A stretch of 37,013 nt of DNA from Pirellulales bacterium (GTDB taxonomy: Bacteria; Planctomycetota; Planctomycetia; Pirellulales; Thermoguttaceae). Below the pieces are notes generated by a model, which searched no databases, was not told the DNA's origin, and was given only the letters and a program-made list of their open reading frames with translations. Below, one piece after another: positions 8,334 to 15,549 of the stretch (its first letter is position 1; every line of letters begins with the position of its first letter). The position numbers and the translations under genes are program-made. Location of the stretch: contig JAFGDS010000052.1 of assembly GCA_016931995.1 (NCBI GenBank), positions 1-37,013 of the forward strand, in the 5' to 3' direction.

Positions 8334-8557
8334 ACCTGCCCTCGGCGCTCGCGTGTGGGGATTGCCGTGTTCACTGTTGTTGACCTGCGTTGCCGGGCGC
8401 AAAAAACGGGGAGGGCAAGGCTCCGACCAAGCCGCGGGGCTCGCGACGAGTCCCGGCTCGGTGGGAACCTCACCCTCCCGAGGACTTCACGTGGAAGAAC
8501 TCCAAGCGGCGGGGTAGCGCCCGTTTGCGAGACGGACGCTGCCCGCCGTTTTGTCGC

Positions 8558-8755
8558 TCACACCAGCTTGACGTTTTCGGCGCGGGGGCCCTTGGGGCCA
8601 CGGCCTTCGGTATAGCTCACCGCTTGGCCCTCGCGGAGCGTGTCGAAACTTGCTCCCTCGACGGCGCTGTGGTGGAAGAACAGCTCGCCGCGCTCTCCTT
8701 CGATGAACCCAAACCCTTTGTCACCGATCAACTTTTTGATCGTCCCTTGCGGCAT
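8558..8755 (-). CDS. cold-shock domain protein (CspA family)
   Basis: A 65-residue single-domain OB-fold RNA chaperone that binds single-stranded RNA and DNA. RNP1 is KGFGFIEGE and RNP2 is ELFFHHSAVEG. The closing block GQAVSYTEGRGPKGPRAENVKLV is typical. The start is ATG 8755, with AAGGAG on the minus strand (8763-8768) and a 7-base gap. Upstream on the same strand is a pyrimidine tract and a gene-free region of several hundred bases, suggesting a long leader as in other cold-shock mRNAs. The family is certain; whether it is cold-inducible is unknown. Confidence 0.96.
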   Translation of the reverse strand: MPQGTIKKLIGDKGFGFIEGERGELFFHHSAVEGASFDTLREGQAVSYTEGRGPKGPRAENVKLV

Positions 8756-8983
8756 GACGCCACTCCTTGAAGAAAGAAAAAAAACGCACTAGACCGCCGT
8801 CCTCGATCCCAACGTTGTCTCGTGTCAGGGAGGATCGCGGCCAAACAAAAAGGGAGAGAATCAACCGCAATTGGAGAGCGACATATCGAGAACAATCTGC
8901 CGCCGCACAAATGGCCGGATACGTGGACGTACGCACTTGAAAGTGCCATTGCGCCCACGTTGCTTCTCACCACTAGGCCGTCC

Positions 8984-8992
8984 ATCATACCA
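8984..8992 (-). promoter_or_regulatory. candidate extended -10 promoter of the cold-shock gene
   Basis: Reading the minus strand, TGGTATGAT: a TATGAT box (8989 to 8984) preceded by TGG. There is no convincing -35 (ATTTCG/TTTCGT near 9007-9013). It would give a leader of about 220 bases before the csp start codon. The intervening 8769-8983 has no supported gene. Confidence 0.3.
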
Positions 8993-9172
8993 CGTCCGCC
9001 GTCCAGACGAAATGGGGGTGTCTCGGTTTCTCTTGAGTTGGTCCCTCTTCGACACCCCTCTTCTGGCGAAGCCGGCCCGGCGGAGTCTCTTCCAGAGGCT
9101 TGCCCGTTGACTGCAGGCTGCCCGATCCGGCAGGCGACGAGCGACGTCTGCCGCCCCGTCCGCGATTTGGTC

Positions 9173-9201
9173 CTGACCGGGAGGCCGAAAACCGGTAGAA
9201 T
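9173..9201 (+). promoter_or_regulatory. candidate promoter of the 59-residue protein gene
   Basis: CTGACC at 9173-9178 and TAGAAT at 9196-9201 with a 17-base spacer. This predicts transcription from about 9208, with a leader of roughly 75 bases to ATG 9285. Confidence 0.4.
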
Positions 9202-9284
9202 TACCTGCTCGTCTCGTGCTGGAGCCATCCTCGGCTGTACGCGGCGACCGCGTTCCCCCGTCAGACCCCACAAGAGGAGGACTC

Positions 9285-9464
9285 ATGGCAAGAGACCGAA
9301 ACACGTACGCGAAACAGGCCAGAGAGGTAGAGAAGAGGCGCAAGGCGGAGGCCAAGCGCGCGGCCCGCCGGAAGAAGGCGCAAGCCCCCGAACCCGTCGC
9401 GGCCGGCAGTTCCCATGGAGACGGCGCTGAGACCGACTCCGATCTGGTGGTCGGGGAGGAGTAG
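9285..9464 (+). CDS. small charged protein, basic N-terminal half and acidic C-terminal tail
   Basis: 59 residues. The first 35 are dominated by Arg, Lys, Ala and Glu (NTYAKQAREVEKRRKAEAKR), predicted as one long basic helix; the rest is an acidic tail ending VVGEE. The composition suggests nucleic-acid or ribosome contact. Small basic proteins of this look occur beside cold-shock or RNA-helicase genes in other bacteria, and here it diverges from csp; that link is a recollection, not a search result. ATG 9285 is supported by GAGGAGG (9274-9280). The high GC content makes chance frames common, but the ribosome site, promoter-like sequence and biased composition argue it is real. Confidence 0.65.
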   Translation: MARDRNTYAKQAREVEKRRKAEAKRAARRKKAQAPEPVAAGSSHGDGAETDSDLVVGEE

Positions 9465-9489
9465 GGCCGGGCTTTTCTTGGGGGGGTAA

Positions 9490-10161
9490 TCACGATCTTG
9501 CCGCCGCGGCGAGCCGTTGTGCCGTCTCGTTGAGGCGGTCCATCGCCACCTGAATGCGGTCCACGTACTGCCGGAGCTGATCGGTTTCCAGGTCGGGGGG
9601 GACGACGATTGGGTTACCGGCCAAGAAGAACACTTTCGTGAACGGCTTCGGGACGATCAGATCGGTCCAACTCCCTCGAATGCGCCAGCATCGCATGCAG
9701 GAATAAGCCGTGGGAACCACGGCGCGGCCCGTGCGGGACGCCAAAAAGGCGATTCCCATGCTCATCTGCCGGCGCGGACCGCGCGGACCGTCGGGCGTGA
9801 TGACAAGATGCTTGTCTTCGGCGGCTCGGATGAGTTCGCGCATGGCGCCGGGCGTGATTCGGCTGGTCGATCCGCGAATGGTCGAGACGCCCACCCTTCG
9901 CAGCACCTGGGCGACGAACGATCCATCCGCGTGGTGACTGGTCAGCGCGGCGGTGAAGCGGTGTTTGCCCCCAAACGCCGGCATCACCATCGAGTCGTGC
10001 CAGACGCAGTAGAGATACCGCCGCGCCGGCGACATGGTATAGGGATTGGTGTCCGGCGTCTCTTCGCGAAACTCCGATTTCAGAGTTCGGAACAGAAGCC
10101 GAACGGCCGCCGTGAAGACCGCGGCGGAGAGACCGGTAAGCCGTGGACTGCGAATTCTCAA
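9490..10161 (-). CDS. DUF374 lysophospholipid acyltransferase family protein
   Basis: 223 residues with the DUF374 pattern: a hydrophobic N-terminus, CVWHDSMVMPAF (the WH-D acyltransferase-like site), then STIRGSTSRITPGAMRELIR and VITPDGPRGPRRQMSMG. These proteins are related to LpxL/PlsC-type acyltransferases and are expected to acylate a lipid at the inner membrane; the substrate is unknown. The start is TTG 10161, which overlaps the ankyrin-gene stop (TTGA, 10161-10158), pointing to translational coupling. It is the last gene of the csrA-headed run and converges with the 59-residue gene, with 25 bases between stops. Confidence 0.88.
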   Translation of the reverse strand: MRIRSPRLTGLSAAVFTAAVRLLFRTLKSEFREETPDTNPYTMSPARRYLYCVWHDSMVMPAFGGKHRFTAALTSHHADGSFVAQVLRRVGVSTIRGSTSRITPGAMRELIRAAEDKHLVITPDGPRGPRRQMSMGIAFLASRTGRAVVPTAYSCMRCWRIRGSWTDLIVPKPFTKVFFLAGNPIVVPPDLETDQLRQYVDRIQVAMDRLNETAQRLAAAARS

Positions 10162-10469
10162 GATACTCTCGCCCCGAGCAAGGCGGCCACGTCGTTGCGT
10201 CCTTCCTGGAGGGCGATGTCGACGGCCGTGCGTCCATTTCGCGTTCGGGCATCCAACTGGGCGCCGGACTGGAGCAGGGCGTTGACGACGTCAACGTGAC
10301 CCCGGGCGGCCGCCCACATCAACGCGGTAAACCCGTCCCGACTCCGGGCGTTGGGGCTGGCGCCCGCCGCCAGCAGCGTCCTAACCCGATCCAAGAGGCC
10401 GTCTTCGGCCGCCTGGGCCAACGCCTGCTCCCGCCTGCGCGCGAACCACGTTCTTACTTGTTCAAGCAT
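10158..10469 (-). CDS. small ankyrin-repeat protein
   Basis: 103 residues. After a basic N-terminal helix (MLEQVRTWFARRREQALAQA) come about two and a half ankyrin repeats: DGLLDRVRTLLAAGASPNAR, DGFTALMWAAARGHVDVVNALL, then NGRTAVDIALQEGRNDVAALL. These are protein-interaction scaffolds. No signal peptide is apparent, so it should be cytoplasmic. The start is ATG 10469; no strong ribosome site was seen. Its stop overlaps the DUF374 start. The binding partner cannot be told. Confidence 0.85.
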   Translation of the reverse strand: MLEQVRTWFARRREQALAQAAEDGLLDRVRTLLAAGASPNARSRDGFTALMWAAARGHVDVVNALLQSGAQLDARTRNGRTAVDIALQEGRNDVAALLGARVS

Positions 10470-10518
10470 ATCGCGACGAACTCATTGTTCAAGTAGCGCA
10501 CGGCCGTTGTGGGTCTGT

Positions 10519-10902
10519 TCAGTGCGGCTGTTCGCACGGCGCGCGGTCGCCGATCAGTTCCACGGCGGGTCCCTGCTTGGGCACGATGATGGTCGCAAGC
10601 AGCGAAGCTTCATCGATGCCCTCGATGGAAAACGGCTCGTTTACGGCGAAGTAGAAAAGTTGACCGGCGTCCAGGTGGATGGCTTCTCCGAGCGCGGACA
10701 CGAGGGCCCGACCCTCCAGGCAATGAAGCACGATTTCGCCCTGGGCCTCGTGCGTTGGGATCGTCTCGCCAGCGGGGATGACCAAATGGACGATCTCCAC
10801 GTCAGCCGTCTTGACCAGAAGCGAGTTGCGCCTGCCGCCGAGCGACTTCTTGAGCTCCTGCACGTCGACGGTTTCGCCGGGTTTGACAAGCGGTTCCATC
10901 AT
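10519..10902 (-). CDS. cupin-domain protein
   Basis: A single small cupin barrel of about 127 residues. IPTHEAQGEIVLHCLEGRALV gives cupin motif 1 in reduced form (His, Glu, His), followed by HLDAGQLFYFAVNEPFSIEGI as motif 2. Such proteins bind a metal or small ligand and are either enzymes or sensors. Minus-strand AAGGTGG (10914 to 10908) favours ATG 10902 or ATG 10899; GTG 10911 is also in frame. It lies about 10 bases after the 88-residue gene and is probably cotranscribed. The ligand is unknown. Confidence 0.8.
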   Translation of the reverse strand: MMEPLVKPGETVDVQELKKSLGGRRNSLLVKTADVEIVHLVIPAGETIPTHEAQGEIVLHCLEGRALVSALGEAIHLDAGQLFYFAVNEPFSIEGIDEASLLATIIVPKQGPAVELIGDRAPCEQPH

Positions 10903-10912
10903 CTTCGCCACC

Positions 10913-11179
10913 TTACGCGGGGTCCATCATCACGCTCACCTCGGGAATCATCGCGAGAACCTTCTCGAGCTCTCGCCGAGACATGTGGGAGCTGTACGCC
11001 ACGCAAAACGTGCAATTCGTCGAATCGGCGTCCTCGGTGATGGGAGCGGCCGTCTTGAAGACGAAGGACAACCCAAGACGATTGAGCAGCCACTGGGCGT
11101 TTTGAACGCCGTCCACCCGCACGCGGCAGGTTTCGCCCAAGGGACGCAACCACACGGGGAATGAATTCATGGTTCTCAT
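10913..11179 (-). CDS. 88-residue protein of unknown function
   Basis: Not recognised. The sequence begins MNSFPVWLRPLGETCRVRVD after an optional MRT, and continues with NAQWLLNRLGLSFVFKTA, TNCTFCVAYSSHMSRREL and VLAMIPEVSVMMDP. The alternation of strands and helices suggests a small alpha/beta, perhaps ferredoxin-like, fold. A CxxC pair (NCTFC) could bind metal. Starts at ATG 11179 or ATG 11170 are both possible. Tight packing between DUF3467 (39-base gap) and the cupin gene supports a real gene in the operon. Confidence 0.65.
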   Translation of the reverse strand: MRTMNSFPVWLRPLGETCRVRVDGVQNAQWLLNRLGLSFVFKTAAPITEDADSTNCTFCVAYSSHMSRRELEKVLAMIPEVSVMMDPA

Positions 11180-11218
11180 CCGAATCGGCCTGTGTAAGGA
11201 AAGACGTCTCTTTCGGTC

Positions 11219-11581
11219 CTAGGCTTGCCGCGCGCGTTTCCGCACGTCCGTCTCGATCGCGCCGAACGTGGTCTCGTGGCGCTCGAGCGTCAATTGCAGA
11301 GCGTGGATCAAACGCTTTGCCGTGTACCAGTTGGTGACGATCCGCTGCGACGCCACGATCGGTTCGTTGGGCACGCCAAACGGCTGGGAATTCAGTCCGA
11401 AGTCGATGACCATCTCCTCGGGCGTGGCCGTCACGCGACAGAAATTGGCGTAATTGGCCATCGCCGCCGAATCGTCCACCTTTACGGCCGCCGACGTCGG
11501 CGGCCGCGGGGCCTCCCGCTGGGCGTCGGAGGAAGGCGCACTCGCGTCCAGAGCCTTGCCGTTTGCCTCGGGATTGTCCAT
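11219..11581 (-). CDS. DUF3467 protein
   Basis: 120 residues. The C-terminal 80 match the DUF3467 pattern: ANYANFCRVTATPEEMVIDF, then GLNSQPFGVPNEPIVASQRI, then TNWYTAKRLIHALQLTLERH, ending in a basic stretch. The N-terminal 40 residues are disordered (Ala, Pro, Ser). DUF3467 is widespread in planctomycetes and of unknown function. ATG 11581 is chosen over upstream starts because minus-strand AGAGGAG precedes it by 7 bases. It is a central gene of the csrA-headed cluster. Confidence 0.88.
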   Translation of the reverse strand: MDNPEANGKALDASAPSSDAQREAPRPPTSAAVKVDDSAAMANYANFCRVTATPEEMVIDFGLNSQPFGVPNEPIVASQRIVTNWYTAKRLIHALQLTLERHETTFGAIETDVRKRARQA

Positions 11582-11655
11582 CGCGGGACTCCTCTTGATC
11601 GGAATTGCCGTCCGGGGCCTGCCCCCAGGTTTGGCCCAAGAGCGCGCCGCCGCGT

Positions 11656-11955
11656 TCAATCGGCCGCCGCGTCGGTGTTGGGTGGCGTCGCGGTTTGCGG
11701 CGGCGGTTGTTTGCGCGGCGCGTCTCGCGGCAGAACCTTCAATTGGTCCAACACTCCGCGGACTCCGTCCACGCTGCTGATCGCCTTCACGGCGGGGCGT
11801 CGCTGGCTCTCGTACTGGATGTTGCCCGAAAGCGTCGCCTGGCCGCCGCGGATGGTCAGGACGACGCGGGATCGCGAGCCGAGGCTCACCCGGGCCAGAT
11901 GCTGATTCGCTTTTTTGAAAATTGCCTTATCCGAGGCCGATCCGCGGTTAAACAT
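11656..11955 (-). CDS. BON-domain protein
   Basis: A small protein of about 99 residues. The core shows the BON pattern: ARVSLGSRSRVVLTIRGGQA, TLSGNIQYESQRRPAVKAIS and SVDGVRGVLDQLKVL. BON domains bind membranes or phospholipid and occur in stress proteins such as OsmY. No signal peptide is seen, so unlike OsmY it may stay in the cytoplasm. Minus-strand AAAGGGG before the start fits ATG 11955 better than ATG 11961. The start overlaps the end of the preceding gene (11948) by 8 to 14 bases. The C-terminal tail is proline and alanine rich. Confidence 0.82.
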   Translation of the reverse strand: MFNRGSASDKAIFKKANQHLARVSLGSRSRVVLTIRGGQATLSGNIQYESQRRPAVKAISSVDGVRGVLDQLKVLPRDAPRKQPPPQTATPPNTDAAAD

Positions 11956-12544
11956 GGCCATGTCCCCTTTTTCGAGGGCGTGCGCGCGCGGCGGCGGGCG
12001 TCTGATCTTCCACGGCGAGATCGCTCCGGCCCGCGCGCTCCTTCACCGAGCGAAAGGGCATTCCCGCGGCGCGCTCGTAACGCTCCGCGCGGAGGAACCA
12101 AAACGCCAGCCCGCCGGTGTTGTGGTACGCTCCGGGCGTCCTCGTGCCCCGGGCGACCGCGGCGCGAACTCCCAGCGAGCCCTTTCGTCCGGTTCTCTTC
12201 CAGCCGCGCCTTTCCATGATGATGCGAACCACCACGCCCACGGCCTGGCGAAGGCGTTTGGTGTGCCGTGGGTCTCCCTGGGCGAGAAAACGGTCGATGG
12301 CCGGTTGCGTCTCGAGTTCCCGAACGACGCCCGATAGGGCCGGACGGTCGTGATGGATCTCGGCTTCCTCCATGCGGCGCTGTCGCTGGGCATCGTCGAA
12401 GAACCTCAACACGTCGTCGAAAGGCTGCTCGGCGTCGTCGAGCACGTCGGAAAACGTTCGTCCCTGTCGGTCTTCAAGGAATTCCTTTCGCGTGATGCGA
12501 ATGGCGCCTGGCATGGACAACATTGTCTCTTCAGACACGGACAT
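11948..12544 (-). CDS. 198-residue protein of unknown function with a basic C-terminal half
   Basis: Not recognised. The N-terminal half is acidic and helical (KEFLEDRQGRTFSDVLDDAE, FDDVLRFFDDAQRQRRMEEA). The middle has QAVGVVVRIIMERRGWKRTG, and the C-terminal third is very basic (ARARPRKRGHGHV). ATG 12544 is supported by minus-strand GGAG with an 8-base gap; ATG 12520 is an alternative. It is embedded between the zinc-ribbon gene (39-base gap) and the overlapping BON gene. The acidic-then-basic layout could suit a nucleic-acid or protein-binding accessory factor, but this is speculation. Confidence 0.65.
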   Translation of the reverse strand: MSVSEETMLSMPGAIRITRKEFLEDRQGRTFSDVLDDAEQPFDDVLRFFDDAQRQRRMEEAEIHHDRPALSGVVRELETQPAIDRFLAQGDPRHTKRLRQAVGVVVRIIMERRGWKRTGRKGSLGVRAAVARGTRTPGAYHNTGGLAFWFLRAERYERAAGMPFRSVKERAGRSDLAVEDQTPAAARARPRKRGHGHV

Positions 12545-12583
12545 TAGGGAATCTCCAAAACGGGAAGTGATCAACCGTGTTCG

Positions 12584-12964
12584 TCAGTAACTTCGGCAGG
12601 CGACGCACGGGACAACGCCCACCGTGGCCTGGCACTTCGGACAGCGTATGCGATGGGCCAGCTTGAACCATTCTCCCTCCGGTATCCTCGCCAGCGCCAA
12701 CTGCCGGACGGCCGCGTCCTCGACCATGTCCACGCGTTCGACTTCCTCAAGGGTCAGACCGACGGCGTGCGCGATGGTGGAATACTCCGACACGCCCATC
12801 TCCATCACCGCGATCGCGGCGGCAACGCGATAAGGAACCTCGATGTGCCGCTTGAGCGGATGACGCCAGGGTCGGCTCCGTCGCTCTCTCTTTCCTCCGC
12901 GCGCGGCGGGCGTTTCGCTCAACGCACATGCGCAACCGCCTTGTCGAGCCTCATCATCCAACAT
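12584..12964 (-). CDS. small protein with C-terminal zinc ribbon
   Basis: 126 residues. The C-terminus IRCPKCQATVGVVPCVACRS has two CxxC knuckles (CPKC and CVAC), a clear zinc-ribbon fold. Before it, VPYRVAAAIAVMEMGVSEYS and TIAHAVGLTLEEVERVDMVE form helices resembling a helix-turn-helix-like unit. ATG 12964 is chosen because it begins just after csrA (25-base gap); the ribosome site is weak. Being next to csrA, it might act in RNA- or ribosome-linked control, but that is inference from position only. Confidence 0.7.
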   Translation of the reverse strand: MLDDEARQGGCACALSETPAARGGKRERRSRPWRHPLKRHIEVPYRVAAAIAVMEMGVSEYSTIAHAVGLTLEEVERVDMVEDAAVRQLALARIPEGEWFKLAHRIRCPKCQATVGVVPCVACRSY

Positions 12965-12989
12965 GGAATCTGCTTTCAGGGCTGACGGA

Positions 12990-13208
12990 TCAACAGTCAG
13001 CCAAAAAGGTGACGGAATCACCCCGGACACGATGATCGACCGGCCCGGCCAAACCATCGTGATCGCGCAGCTCGCCTCGCCGAATACCCACCGAGCGCGG
13101 GGCGTCGATGCCGATCTTCATCGACCGACCGTGCATCTCCAGAAACGTCACCGTAACATCCTGGCCAATATGCACCGTCTCGCCACATTTTCTGCCGAGG
13201 ACCAACAT
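12990..13208 (-). CDS. csrA: carbon storage regulator CsrA
   Basis: A 72-residue homodimeric RNA-binding post-transcriptional regulator that binds GGA motifs in mRNA leaders. MLVLGRKCGETVHIGQDVTV, then LEMHGRSMKIGIDAPRSVGI and RRGEL follow the CsrA pattern closely, including the RNA-contact strand at the N-terminus and the RRGEL segment. The 20-odd residue tail after RRGEL (HDGLAGPVDH...) is unlike common CsrA tails. ATG 13208 has GGAGGAA (13223 to 13217) 8 bases upstream; that GGAGG is itself a potential CsrA target, so autoregulation is possible. First gene of the nine-gene minus-strand run. No fliW or flagellar genes are nearby. Confidence 0.93.
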   Translation of the reverse strand: MLVLGRKCGETVHIGQDVTVTFLEMHGRSMKIGIDAPRSVGIRRGELRDHDGLAGPVDHRVRGDSVTFLADC

Positions 13209-13294
13209 GGGAACGCTTCCTCCATGAAAGGGCGGGCCCGCATCCCGGATTTGCAGTTACTAAATGTAGCAGTACAAAACATGCACCTACAAAT

Positions 13295-13322
13295 AATATA
13301 CCTTCACTTCTCCCGAGTGCAA
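13295..13322 (-). promoter_or_regulatory. candidate promoter of csrA and the downstream cluster
   Basis: On the minus strand: TTGCAC (13322 to 13317), a 16-base spacer, TATATT (13300 to 13295, 5 of 6). It lies in the one AT-rich pocket of this region (about 13258-13302). The expected start is near 13288, giving an 80-base csrA leader. A second weaker pair (TTGTAG 13292-13287 and TACATT 13268-13263, spacer 18) overlaps. Confidence 0.45.
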
Positions 13323-13495
13323 AGGGCACTTCGCGTCGTATTCCAAGAAATCCCGCTCTCCCGATCACCACGAGATGACCATCACGGGTGGACACCAACC
13401 GTATGACAGTGGGGGTCCTGGCGAGGGCGGGTCCGCTGCGAGGAGGACAGCCCCATTCCTGCTCCGCAAGGATCGGGACCGTCCCCGGGGCACTC

Positions 13496-13567
13496 GTCAT
13501 CCTAAACGCAGCGGAGGATCTCGTTGGCATTACGCGAGTGGAGATCCTTCGCTGCGCTCAGGATGAC
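13496..13567. repeat. inverted pair of the GGATGAC-arm repeat
   Basis: Arm 1 (13496-13522) starts GTCATCCTAAACGCAGCGGA. Arm 2 (13541-13567) ends GCTGCGCTCAGGATGAC. They are near-complementary with an 18-base loop, giving a strong hairpin between the nagB-fusion stop (13596) and the csrA promoter. It could end transcription of the nagB fusion. Confidence 0.8.
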
Positions 13568-13595
13568 CGTCTGGGCCCGAGTCTGGAATAGGCCC

Positions 13596-15476
13596 CTAGA
13601 GCATGGCGCCGTCCCAGCGTACGAAGGCTTCCATGGCGTAGTACTCGGGCAGGCCGACGCGGTTGTACAGATCGGCCGTGTTGCGGTTGCGGTCCTCGGC
13701 CCGCTGCCAGAACTCGCGTGGGTCGTCAGGGCCGGGGAAGAGGGCCGAGTCCTTCTGCGACTCGTGCCGGAAGATCGCCTGCTTCTTCGTTTTCACGTCG
13801 TCCGGGCTCAAGGGCACGGCAATCTGGATCACGTGCAACGCCCATTCCTGCCATGCCCCGCGATACAGCAGCACGTCCGGCCGGCGGCCCGCGGTCTCTT
13901 CGAGTTCGCGGAGCGTCTCGAAGATGAGCTGCGCGCAGACGCGGTGCGTGCCGTGCGGGTCGGAGAGGTCGCCGGCCACGAAGACCTGATCCGGTTGGAG
14001 CCGGTCGATCAACTCGCGGACGCGGCGGTAGTCCTCTTCCGTGGGCGGTTTTTTGGCCACCGTGCCGGTTTGATAAAAGGGCAAGTCGAGGAAGTGCATG
14101 TGTTCTTCCCGCACGCCGCACACCTCGGCGGCCGCCTTGGCCTCGCTCCAGCGGATGATGGTTTTGATGTGCCGCACCGCGTCGCTGTCTGGCTGGCCCG
14201 GTTTCTTCTCGGCCAACGTCTGGAGAACCTCGATCTCCAGGTGGGGAGTTTTTTGCTCGTCGATGCCGAATCGCCGGTTCAGTTCGGTCATCAGGTCGGC
14301 CAGTTGCCGGGCGTCGTGGTCGAACACGGCGATGTTGCCGCTGGTCATGTAGGCCACGTGCACCTCGTGTCCGTCCTGCGCCATCCGCGTCAGGCTCCCG
14401 CCCATGCTAATGACGTCGTCGTCCGGATGAGGGCTGAAGCACAGCACGCGTCGGGGCTGCGTGCCGGCCGGATGGTATTCGATGGTGTCCATCAATCCGC
14501 GGAAGACGCGATGGGCCAGCTTCGACGCGGGTCCCCAATCGCGCATCAGCTCGTGCAGGCCGAACTGCCGGAAATCGTCCACGTCGAGCTTCAGCAGGGC
14601 CTTGCCCGTCTGATGACACAGCCACAGCACGGCCCGCTTGACGAGCATTTCGTCCCAGGCGACCGCGCCCAAGAGCCACGGGGTTGCCCGGCCGGTCAGG
14701 TCGTCCGCGGCGGCGTCGTCGAGCAGGAACGCCACGCCGGGGTGATCGCGGAGGAAGCTGGCCGGCACGCGGTCGTTGACCGGCCCCTCGACCGCGTCGC
14801 GGATGATCCGCGACTTGTGCTCGCCAAACGCCAGAAGGAAGATCTTCTTCGCCTCGAGGATCGTGCCCACGCCCATGGTCAGCGCTTGGGTGGGCACGTT
14901 TTCGAGGTGGAAGAAGTCGCTGGCGGCGTCCTTGCGGGTGGTGGAATCGAGGGTGACCAACCGGGTGCGGCTGGCGCGCACGGCGGGCGGCTCGTTGAAC
15001 CCGATGTGCCCGTTGCGCCCAATGCCCAGCAACTGCACGTCGATCCCGCCGGCGCGGCGGATCGCGTCTTCAAACCGGCGGCAGTGCTCTTCGACTTCGC
15101 CGGGCGGCAGCGTGCCGTCGAGGATGTGGATGTTCTCGCGGGGGATGTTGACGTGGTTGAACAGCGATTCGTCCATCCACTGGTGGTAGCTCTGCACCTG
15201 CGCCGGCGAGAGGCCGTAGTATTCGTCCAGGTTGAACGTGACCACGCCGGACAGATCCAGCCCTTCCTCGTGGTGCATGCGGATCAGCTCGCGGTAGACG
15301 CTCACGGGCGTCGATCCGGTGGCCAGCCCCAGCACCGCCCGCTGGCCGAAGGCGTTCCGCTCGCGGATCGTGTTGGCGATGGTCCGGGCGACGTGCCGGG
15401 CGGCGTCGCGGTTCGAGTCGAAGACGTAGCACGGGATGTGCGTGGCGGGAACCGGGTCGGCCGTGTGTTGTCTCAT
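13596..15476 (-). CDS. nagB: fusion of glucosamine-6-phosphate deaminase (NagB) and LmbE/PIG-L-type deacetylase
   Basis: 626 residues in two parts. The N-terminal 270 residues are NagB: LGLATGSTPVSVYREL, VTFNLDEYYGLSP and LLGIGRNGHIGFNEPPA. It should convert glucosamine-6-P to fructose-6-P and ammonia. The C-terminal half carries the LmbE zinc site CFSPHPDDDVISMGGSL and a later GDLSDPHGTHRV, the signature of N-acetylglucosaminyl deacetylases. Together they could deacetylate and then deaminate an amino sugar. The long NagB-LmbE architecture is known from Bacteroidetes and planctomycetes. In E. coli NagB the catalytic loop reads DGHIAFNEP; here the Asp is Asn (RNGHIGFNEP). ATG 15476 is chosen; the upstream open frame translates repeat DNA. 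Confidence 0.92.
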   Translation of the reverse strand: MRQHTADPVPATHIPCYVFDSNRDAARHVARTIANTIRERNAFGQRAVLGLATGSTPVSVYRELIRMHHEEGLDLSGVVTFNLDEYYGLSPAQVQSYHQWMDESLFNHVNIPRENIHILDGTLPPGEVEEHCRRFEDAIRRAGGIDVQLLGIGRNGHIGFNEPPAVRASRTRLVTLDSTTRKDAASDFFHLENVPTQALTMGVGTILEAKKIFLLAFGEHKSRIIRDAVEGPVNDRVPASFLRDHPGVAFLLDDAAADDLTGRATPWLLGAVAWDEMLVKRAVLWLCHQTGKALLKLDVDDFRQFGLHELMRDWGPASKLAHRVFRGLMDTIEYHPAGTQPRRVLCFSPHPDDDVISMGGSLTRMAQDGHEVHVAYMTSGNIAVFDHDARQLADLMTELNRRFGIDEQKTPHLEIEVLQTLAEKKPGQPDSDAVRHIKTIIRWSEAKAAAEVCGVREEHMHFLDLPFYQTGTVAKKPPTEEDYRRVRELIDRLQPDQVFVAGDLSDPHGTHRVCAQLIFETLRELEETAGRRPDVLLYRGAWQEWALHVIQIAVPLSPDDVKTKKQAIFRHESQKDSALFPGPDDPREFWQRAEDRNRNTADLYNRVGLPEYYAMEAFVRWDGAML

Positions 15477-15549
15477 GGCGTGTCGCGAGGCGGCGGGGAA
15501 AGCGGTCGGGAAGTGGGAAGGGTTGATCCAGAAAGTCCTCTCCGTCAAC

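Follow-up and report, generated by a model that had tools for sequence, protein, structure and literature searches.

What holds together a tightly packed set of 9 genes in a Pirellulales bacterium, and what controls it? The set is located on the minus strand, at positions 9490-13208, of contig JAFGDS010000052.1 (assembly GCA_016931995.1), of which all 37,013 nucleotides were analysed and are here called the window; the genome is a 5.43-Mb assembly of 153 contigs. A sequence-only reading had taken csrA, the first gene, as the defining head of the set. Comparison with relatives showed that the constant parts of the unit are instead the third gene, orf3, referred to in that reading as an unknown basic protein, and a dedicated promoter array. 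The unit is ordinary in its packing and unusual in its regulation, with a nearly single-target promoter array that is tied to an undescribed protein.

A total of 54 orf3 units were compared, 17 of which make up the same-family set (the window, 15 loci from 14 other genomes of the family, and L036, whose family is assumed; L041 and L047 are 2 loci of one genome), while the remaining 37 were chosen for having orf3. Occurrence was counted in an order sample of 246 genomes, and the orf3 counts at family, order and phylum level each include the genome of the window. The array and its parts are as follows.

13249-13323, minus strand, promoter and candidate operator array, defined by upstream comparison and by a matrix
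13323-13318, minus strand, -35 box of the array, TTTGCA
13300-13295, minus strand, -10 box of the array, TATATT
13308-13294, 13293-13279, 13278-13264 and 13263-13249, minus strand, four imperfect 15-bp units

In a promoter scan of positions 8500-14500, TTTGCA-17-TATATT (13323-13295) was the only promoter-like site on the minus strand, in agreement with the single upstream site of the sequence-only reading, and the array was conserved at 51 of the 54 orf3 units. The repeat unit reads as TTGnAnnTnCAA every 15 bp, which places 12-bp palindromes around the -10 box. Self-identity at a lag of 15 bases was 0.43, compared with 0.20 to 0.34 at the other lags from 3 to 31 (highest at 30, 21 and 6), and the best dyad was 63%. 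A matrix built from 19 training sites gave 27.2 bits for the window array, which is itself a training site; the next best place in the window, with 5.7 bits, was in the same array on the opposite strand, and the array was identified only once in the window's genome. The count of 51 consists of 50 units identified automatically and L045, which was missed in the unit-by-unit count (over-extended open frame) and recovered in a matrix scan of 588 kb of loci. Among the 35 units outside the training set, some of which are close relatives of training loci, the array was present in 32. The 588-kb scan yielded 69 places of at least 11 bits, compared with 3 (best 12.7) in the reversed control; some places were present twice in the scanned loci (L028 and L030-L033 duplicate L040, L039, L038, L042 and L037), and palindromic sites were counted on both strands. 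Furthermore, a search for tandem palindromes in 47 orf3 genomes returned 22 places in 19 genomes, 17 of them at 16 orf3 promoters and 5 elsewhere, and a single place in the reversed control.

The array was located before whichever gene came first in the unit: csrA in the window and L043, the zinc-ribbon gene in L036, L038, L040, L041, L042 and L047, and orf3 in the others. Its placement before csrA in L043 or before the zinc-ribbon gene in 6 loci marks it as an element of the unit and not of one start codon. It was also noted that L106 contains a palindromic copy between divergent u88 and orf3 genes.

The presence of the array was closely tied to the presence of orf3. The strict pattern was found in 23 of the 37 order genomes with orf3, versus 11 of the 209 genomes without the gene (Fisher P ~7e-15), and relatedness was left uncorrected in this test as well as in the neighbourhood enrichment counts given below. 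All 13 sites in the 11 orf3-free genomes had 2 mismatches, and they occurred at about the rate of the reversed control, which gave 16 sites spread over 15 of the 246 genomes. Sites with 0 or 1 mismatch were all located at orf3 genes, except for one before an orf3 remnant. This locus (L214:230-400, contig G499:C15) holds an operator copy followed by a remnant of 29 residues (E 1e-5), and the full gene is on another contig. In the other 14 of the 37 orf3 genomes, where the strict pattern gave no hit, the matrix recovered the site; 3 of these genomes belong to the training set. Genomes G544, G596 and G005 contain 2 full orf3 copies each, with a site at each copy. In 7 u88 loci with no orf3 in the retrieved stretch, no place of 11 bits was identified; 2 of these loci come from genomes with orf3 elsewhere. 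The orf3 gene is thus associated with a dedicated site in its own promoter, present where the gene is present. With roughly one strict site for each copy of orf3, a large regulon was rejected. The zinc-ribbon protein was rejected as the binder of the array, having been detected in only 7 units versus 51 with the array.

All 9 open frames of the unit were recovered at the places given in the sequence-only reading, as listed here.

12990-13208, minus strand, csrA, 72 amino acids (Pfam PF02599, 66 bits, cut-off 27)
12584-12964 (preferred start), minus strand, zinc-ribbon protein, 126 amino acids (CPKC...CVAC and a helix-turn-helix-like stretch, both by eye)
11948-12544, minus strand, orf3, 198 amino acids (no Pfam family above cut-off)
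11656-11961, minus strand, single-BON-domain protein (PF04972, 34.4 bits, cut-off 27)
11219-11659 (TTG start), minus strand, DUF3467 protein (PF11950, 69.8 bits, cut-off 25)
10913-11179, minus strand, u88, a small alpha/beta protein of 88 amino acids (no Pfam family above cut-off)
10519-10911, minus strand, cupin-like protein (Cupin_2, 25.6 bits)
10158-10469, minus strand, short ankyrin-repeat protein (PF13637, 74.6 bits)
9490-10161, minus strand, DUF374 acyltransferase-like protein (PF04028, 73 bits, cut-off 26.8)

The spacing ranges from overlaps to gaps of less than 80 bases; the BON gene starts inside orf3, and the ankyrin and DUF374 genes are coupled by TTGA, as described before. The family names given earlier to the CsrA, BON, DUF3467, ankyrin and DUF374 proteins were borne out by Pfam, whereas the cupin narrowly missed its cut-off of 27.2 bits, and the zinc-ribbon, orf3 and u88 proteins had no Pfam family over the curated cut-off. 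An alternative ATG of the zinc-ribbon gene at 13057 would overlap csrA. The likely start of the DUF3467 gene is the ATG at 11581, which has the better ribosome site by eye, and no signal peptide was apparent by eye in the BON protein. The u88 fold showed a weak likeness to eIF1 and Rpb11-type folds (best E 0.015), which was not used. An anti-phage defence system was dropped as a candidate, the PADLOC models giving 0 families for orf3, u88, the zinc-ribbon, DUF3467 and DUF374 proteins and the orf3 relative in L094.

At least one further window gene was located beside orf3 in 15 of the 17 same-family loci, on one strand and in one order in all 15, which makes the packing more than chance. The order kept was csrA/zinc-ribbon, orf3, BON, DUF3467, u88, cupin, ankyrin, DUF374. 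Membership in the 17 units was 17 for orf3, 11 for u88, 9 for BON, 7 each for zinc-ribbon and DUF374, 6 for DUF3467, 5 for ankyrin and 3 each for cupin and csrA, one of the cupin occurrences being a match of 24 residues. The DUF374 protein search gave 9 loci; of the 9 named relatives that it found, 8 are labelled planctomycetes (4 of them Pirellulales) and 1 otherwise (L029). The role of csrA as the defining head was not supported: it heads the unit in the window, L043 and L044 only, CsrA-family genes are located downstream of orf3 in other units, and its place at the head is among the least conserved features of the unit. The second most constant partner of orf3 was u88, which was found in 28 of the 54 units when either strand was counted. 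In the 37 other units, u88 was on the same strand in 16, and the zinc-ribbon and ankyrin genes in none; 24 had a further window gene, with the order kept in 16 and not in L035, L100, L106, L108, L171, L183, L185 and L189.

The orf3 gene was present in 15 of 61 genomes of the family, 37 of 246 of the order and 7 of 392 of the phylum (1 of the 7 being weak), and u88 in 29 of the 246 order genomes, 23 of which also had orf3. A tree of 52 of the 54 units (L035 and L193 were left out) required 8 family changes, one above the minimum of 7, and largely follows taxonomy, although weak branches account for 16 of the 49 inner ones and families f1, f2 and f106 do not each form a single clade. From this tree, with its many weak branches, orf3 seems to be old, largely vertical and often lost, and its nearness to the minimum number of changes gives no sign of a recent transfer that would explain the common promoter. 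Structure prediction, which the sequence-only reading had proposed for the unknown proteins of the unit, yielded an AlphaFold model of orf3 with a predicted local distance difference test score (pLDDT) of 79.6, of which the first half is helical and well predicted, but no significant fold match. The net charge of residues 115 to the end ranged from +4 to +19, with a mean of +8.7 (29 homologues), compared with -1.4 for residues 1-114 (32 rows). The family had no significant match in Pfam or PDB, and a weak likeness of the model to Ecl18kI (Z 3.1) was not used. A phage or plasmid origin was rejected, with no match in phages, plasmids and viral contigs, nor in phages for the L094 relative; the only hint was a weak PHROG match, in which 7 of 32 homologues hit a functionally uncharacterised phage family with a best E of 0.0037. 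Second copies that cover only the first half of orf3 were observed just downstream of the full gene in L045 (8375-8716) and L046 (5079-5420), and may possibly be partner or dominant-negative forms. The L094 relative (194-565), from another family of the phylum, is short and remote, with 34% identity to the window protein.

As the array tracks the presence of orf3, we infer that orf3 itself reads the site, and we give about an even chance to orf3 being the autoregulator of its own unit through putative binding to the array. The unit would then be an operon under the control of its own gene, and repression would be favoured over activation. The predicted protein has a helical N-terminal half that is close to neutral and a C-terminal half that is strongly basic; it would most likely sit as a dimer or a chain of dimers on the 12-bp palindromes at 15-bp spacing, over the -10 box and the start region and with the -35 box in phase, and when bound it would shut off its own promoter. 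Stress would release orf3, and the operon would be made, in the window with CsrA and the zinc-ribbon, BON, DUF3467, u88, cupin, ankyrin and DUF374 proteins. The cargo varies by lineage and seems to lean to RNA control and to membrane and wall adjustment. From this leaning and the frequent cold-shock-domain or RRM neighbours, a cold-type or general RNA/membrane stress would be the likeliest signal.

The genes beside orf3 differ among lineages. Other units paired orf3 with the flotillin FloA or with a fatty-acid desaturase (by Pfam), or combined orf3, u88 and CsrA with a phosphoenolpyruvate-utilising enzyme, a glycosyltransferase and GH130. Units of a glycosyltransferase and a GH130-type glycosidase were observed beside orf3 in L105, L107, L108, L172, L183-L185, L188 and L190, recurring in one family, and part of such a unit also precedes csrA in L044. 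Of 121 cold-shock-domain genes, we counted 12 (expected 0.24) at up to about 5.5 kb from the 51 orf3 places of 47 genomes, and of 61 RRM genes likewise 12 (expected 0.12), at places chosen by eye from tables before the distances were measured, an RRM gene of G055 just beyond the limit being dropped. DEAD-box-like and S21-like genes were also recognised near orf3; these names, and that of TPR, were assigned to neighbours by eye. Divergent from orf3 across the array were csp (L191, L192), RRM (L089, L176, L177, L187) and DEAD-box-like genes (L048, L049), which makes shared control possible in those loci. In L048 (10958-11615), an RRM protein is followed by an S21-like protein near orf3, an arrangement known from the cyanobacterial cold response. 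One gene near the unit in the window belongs to these families.

8558-8755, minus strand, cold-shock-domain protein, downstream on the same strand (CSD match G000:C93:8564-8749)

The genome of the window had no RRM match. Taken together, cargo and neighbours suggest RNA handling or cold-type stress at least as much as envelope stress. The envelope or lipid proposal of the sequence-only reading survives to the extent that the unit is conserved, has one promoter, includes membrane and lipid genes (DUF374, FloA, desaturase) and was found described in no paper in a literature search of titles and abstract openings; it does not survive as a csrA-led unit. Side by side with the unit, a small Lys/Arg-rich protein (MARDxNTxxKxxREMEKKRKAEEKR...) is encoded at 9216-9464 of the window and recurs near orf3, with 18 members in the neighbour clustering. 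Upstream on the same strand, 13596-15548 encodes a glucosamine-6-phosphate deaminase-like/PIG-L deacetylase fusion, which is located within 4 kb upstream of none of the other orf3 units in the set of 54.

Several observations weigh against autoregulation by orf3 or against cold as its signal. No DNA-binding fold was recognised for orf3 (lowest E 2.7 with Foldseek, highest Z 3.1 with VIA-align), and 9 of 32 members had sub-threshold matches to light-harvesting proteins (best E 0.0054; PDB E 0.079), which were taken as chance. The orf3 gene of L093, among the most distant copies, is without the array, the array of L035 is degenerate, and none was found in the available stretch upstream of L044, where the contig starts within the gene that precedes csrA. 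Conversely, a 15.4-bit place in L034 lies away from any orf3. The window copy, with 2 mismatches, fails the strict tandem-palindrome form, as do most orf3 promoters of the 47 genomes. The dyad and the 15-bp repeat were not above column-shuffled alignments, so that the symmetry belongs to the consensus, and extra covariation was rejected. The csp gene of the window is without an array, there being no other strong matrix place in the window. In R. baltica, lipid and envelope genes changed in the cold, whereas no response to cold was seen for the 2 proteins annotated there as class I cold-shock proteins (PMC2754498), which leaves cold as only a lead.

An alternative that we regard as rather unlikely is that a conserved regulator from another locus binds the array, with the orf3 promoter as its only strong target and orf3 as a plain effector. 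The lack of a recognised DNA-binding fold in orf3 fits such a regulator, and a distant protein with one target would likewise give one site per genome, but it would need to be lost and retained together with orf3, and strict sites away from orf3 occur at about the control rate. The conserved sequence might also be a strong core promoter and start region, acting in sigma recognition or as a 5' leader in the RNA, with no operator. This we consider unlikely: the start region is conserved too, in 15-bp steps, a promoter specific to one sigma factor should recur at other genes, where this one was not found, and no Rfam family reached its gathering score in positions 8400-14000 of the window, even though the site overlaps sigma-70-like -35 and -10 boxes, the transcript would include part of the array, and some units contain CsrA. 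An RNA element was rejected on the same Rfam result, a single sub-threshold microRNA match being taken as chance.

That the unit is a csrA-led envelope-stress or lipid-adaptation operon with CsrA as its regulator is improbable. It draws on the 3 units headed by csrA and on the acyltransferase-like, flotillin and desaturase partners; set against these, csrA is not at the head in 14 of the 17 same-family units, which retain both order and promoter, and the promoter tracks orf3. We give very little credence to a mobile or selfish cassette of orf3 and array, in which the array would be a recombination or maintenance site. The patchy occurrence of orf3 (37 of 246 genomes), the swapped cargo and the weak phage-family match would suit a cassette, whereas the orf3 tree largely follows taxonomy and the phage, plasmid and viral collections gave no match.

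Autoregulation by orf3 can be extended to a bolder proposal, which we advance tentatively: orf3 may found a new class of DNA-binding autoregulators without a known fold that polymerise on palindromes phased at 15 bp, and it may drive an ancient planctomycete stress operon in which the switch is fixed and the cargo swapped (CsrA with RNA and membrane modules, flotillin, or glycosyltransferase-glycosidase). Gene regulation in planctomycetes is little known, and orf3 represents an unannotated family with a likely DNA target that can be read from genomes. If the proposal is true, it would define a new type of regulator, unite the hypothetical proteins orf3, u88, zinc-ribbon and DUF3467, and provide a promoter that could serve as a marker of a planctomycete stress response.

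The known systems closest to the proposed arrangement are the autorepressed one-component regulators LexA, HipB and the Xre type, which have the operator in their own promoter. Like these, orf3 is associated with one dedicated site, a palindrome, that covers the -10 box of the candidate regulator's own operon, but unlike them it has no recognised helix-turn-helix or other DNA-binding fold, and its unit has a 15-bp tandem array of 12-bp palindromes and lineage-specific cargo. The first gene of the window unit belongs to the CsrA family according to Pfam, whereas its product falls below the NCBIfam equivalog cut-offs (59.5 versus 73 for NF002469 and 55.9 versus 70.1 for TIGR00202); it is a divergent paralogue, one of about 9 in the genome (9 CsrA-family matches in G000), and not a constant head of the unit. 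A large, unexplained expansion of this family was also observed, with 401 matches across the 47 genomes searched, the window's included. In the cyanobacterial cold-acclimation sets, an RRM protein occurs with S21, a DEAD-box helicase and desaturases. The orf3 loci resemble these sets in having cold-shock-domain or RRM genes nearby in several families, a desaturase by Pfam, and S21-like and DEAD-box-like genes by eye, but the array is shared with such neighbours in at most a few divergent arrangements.

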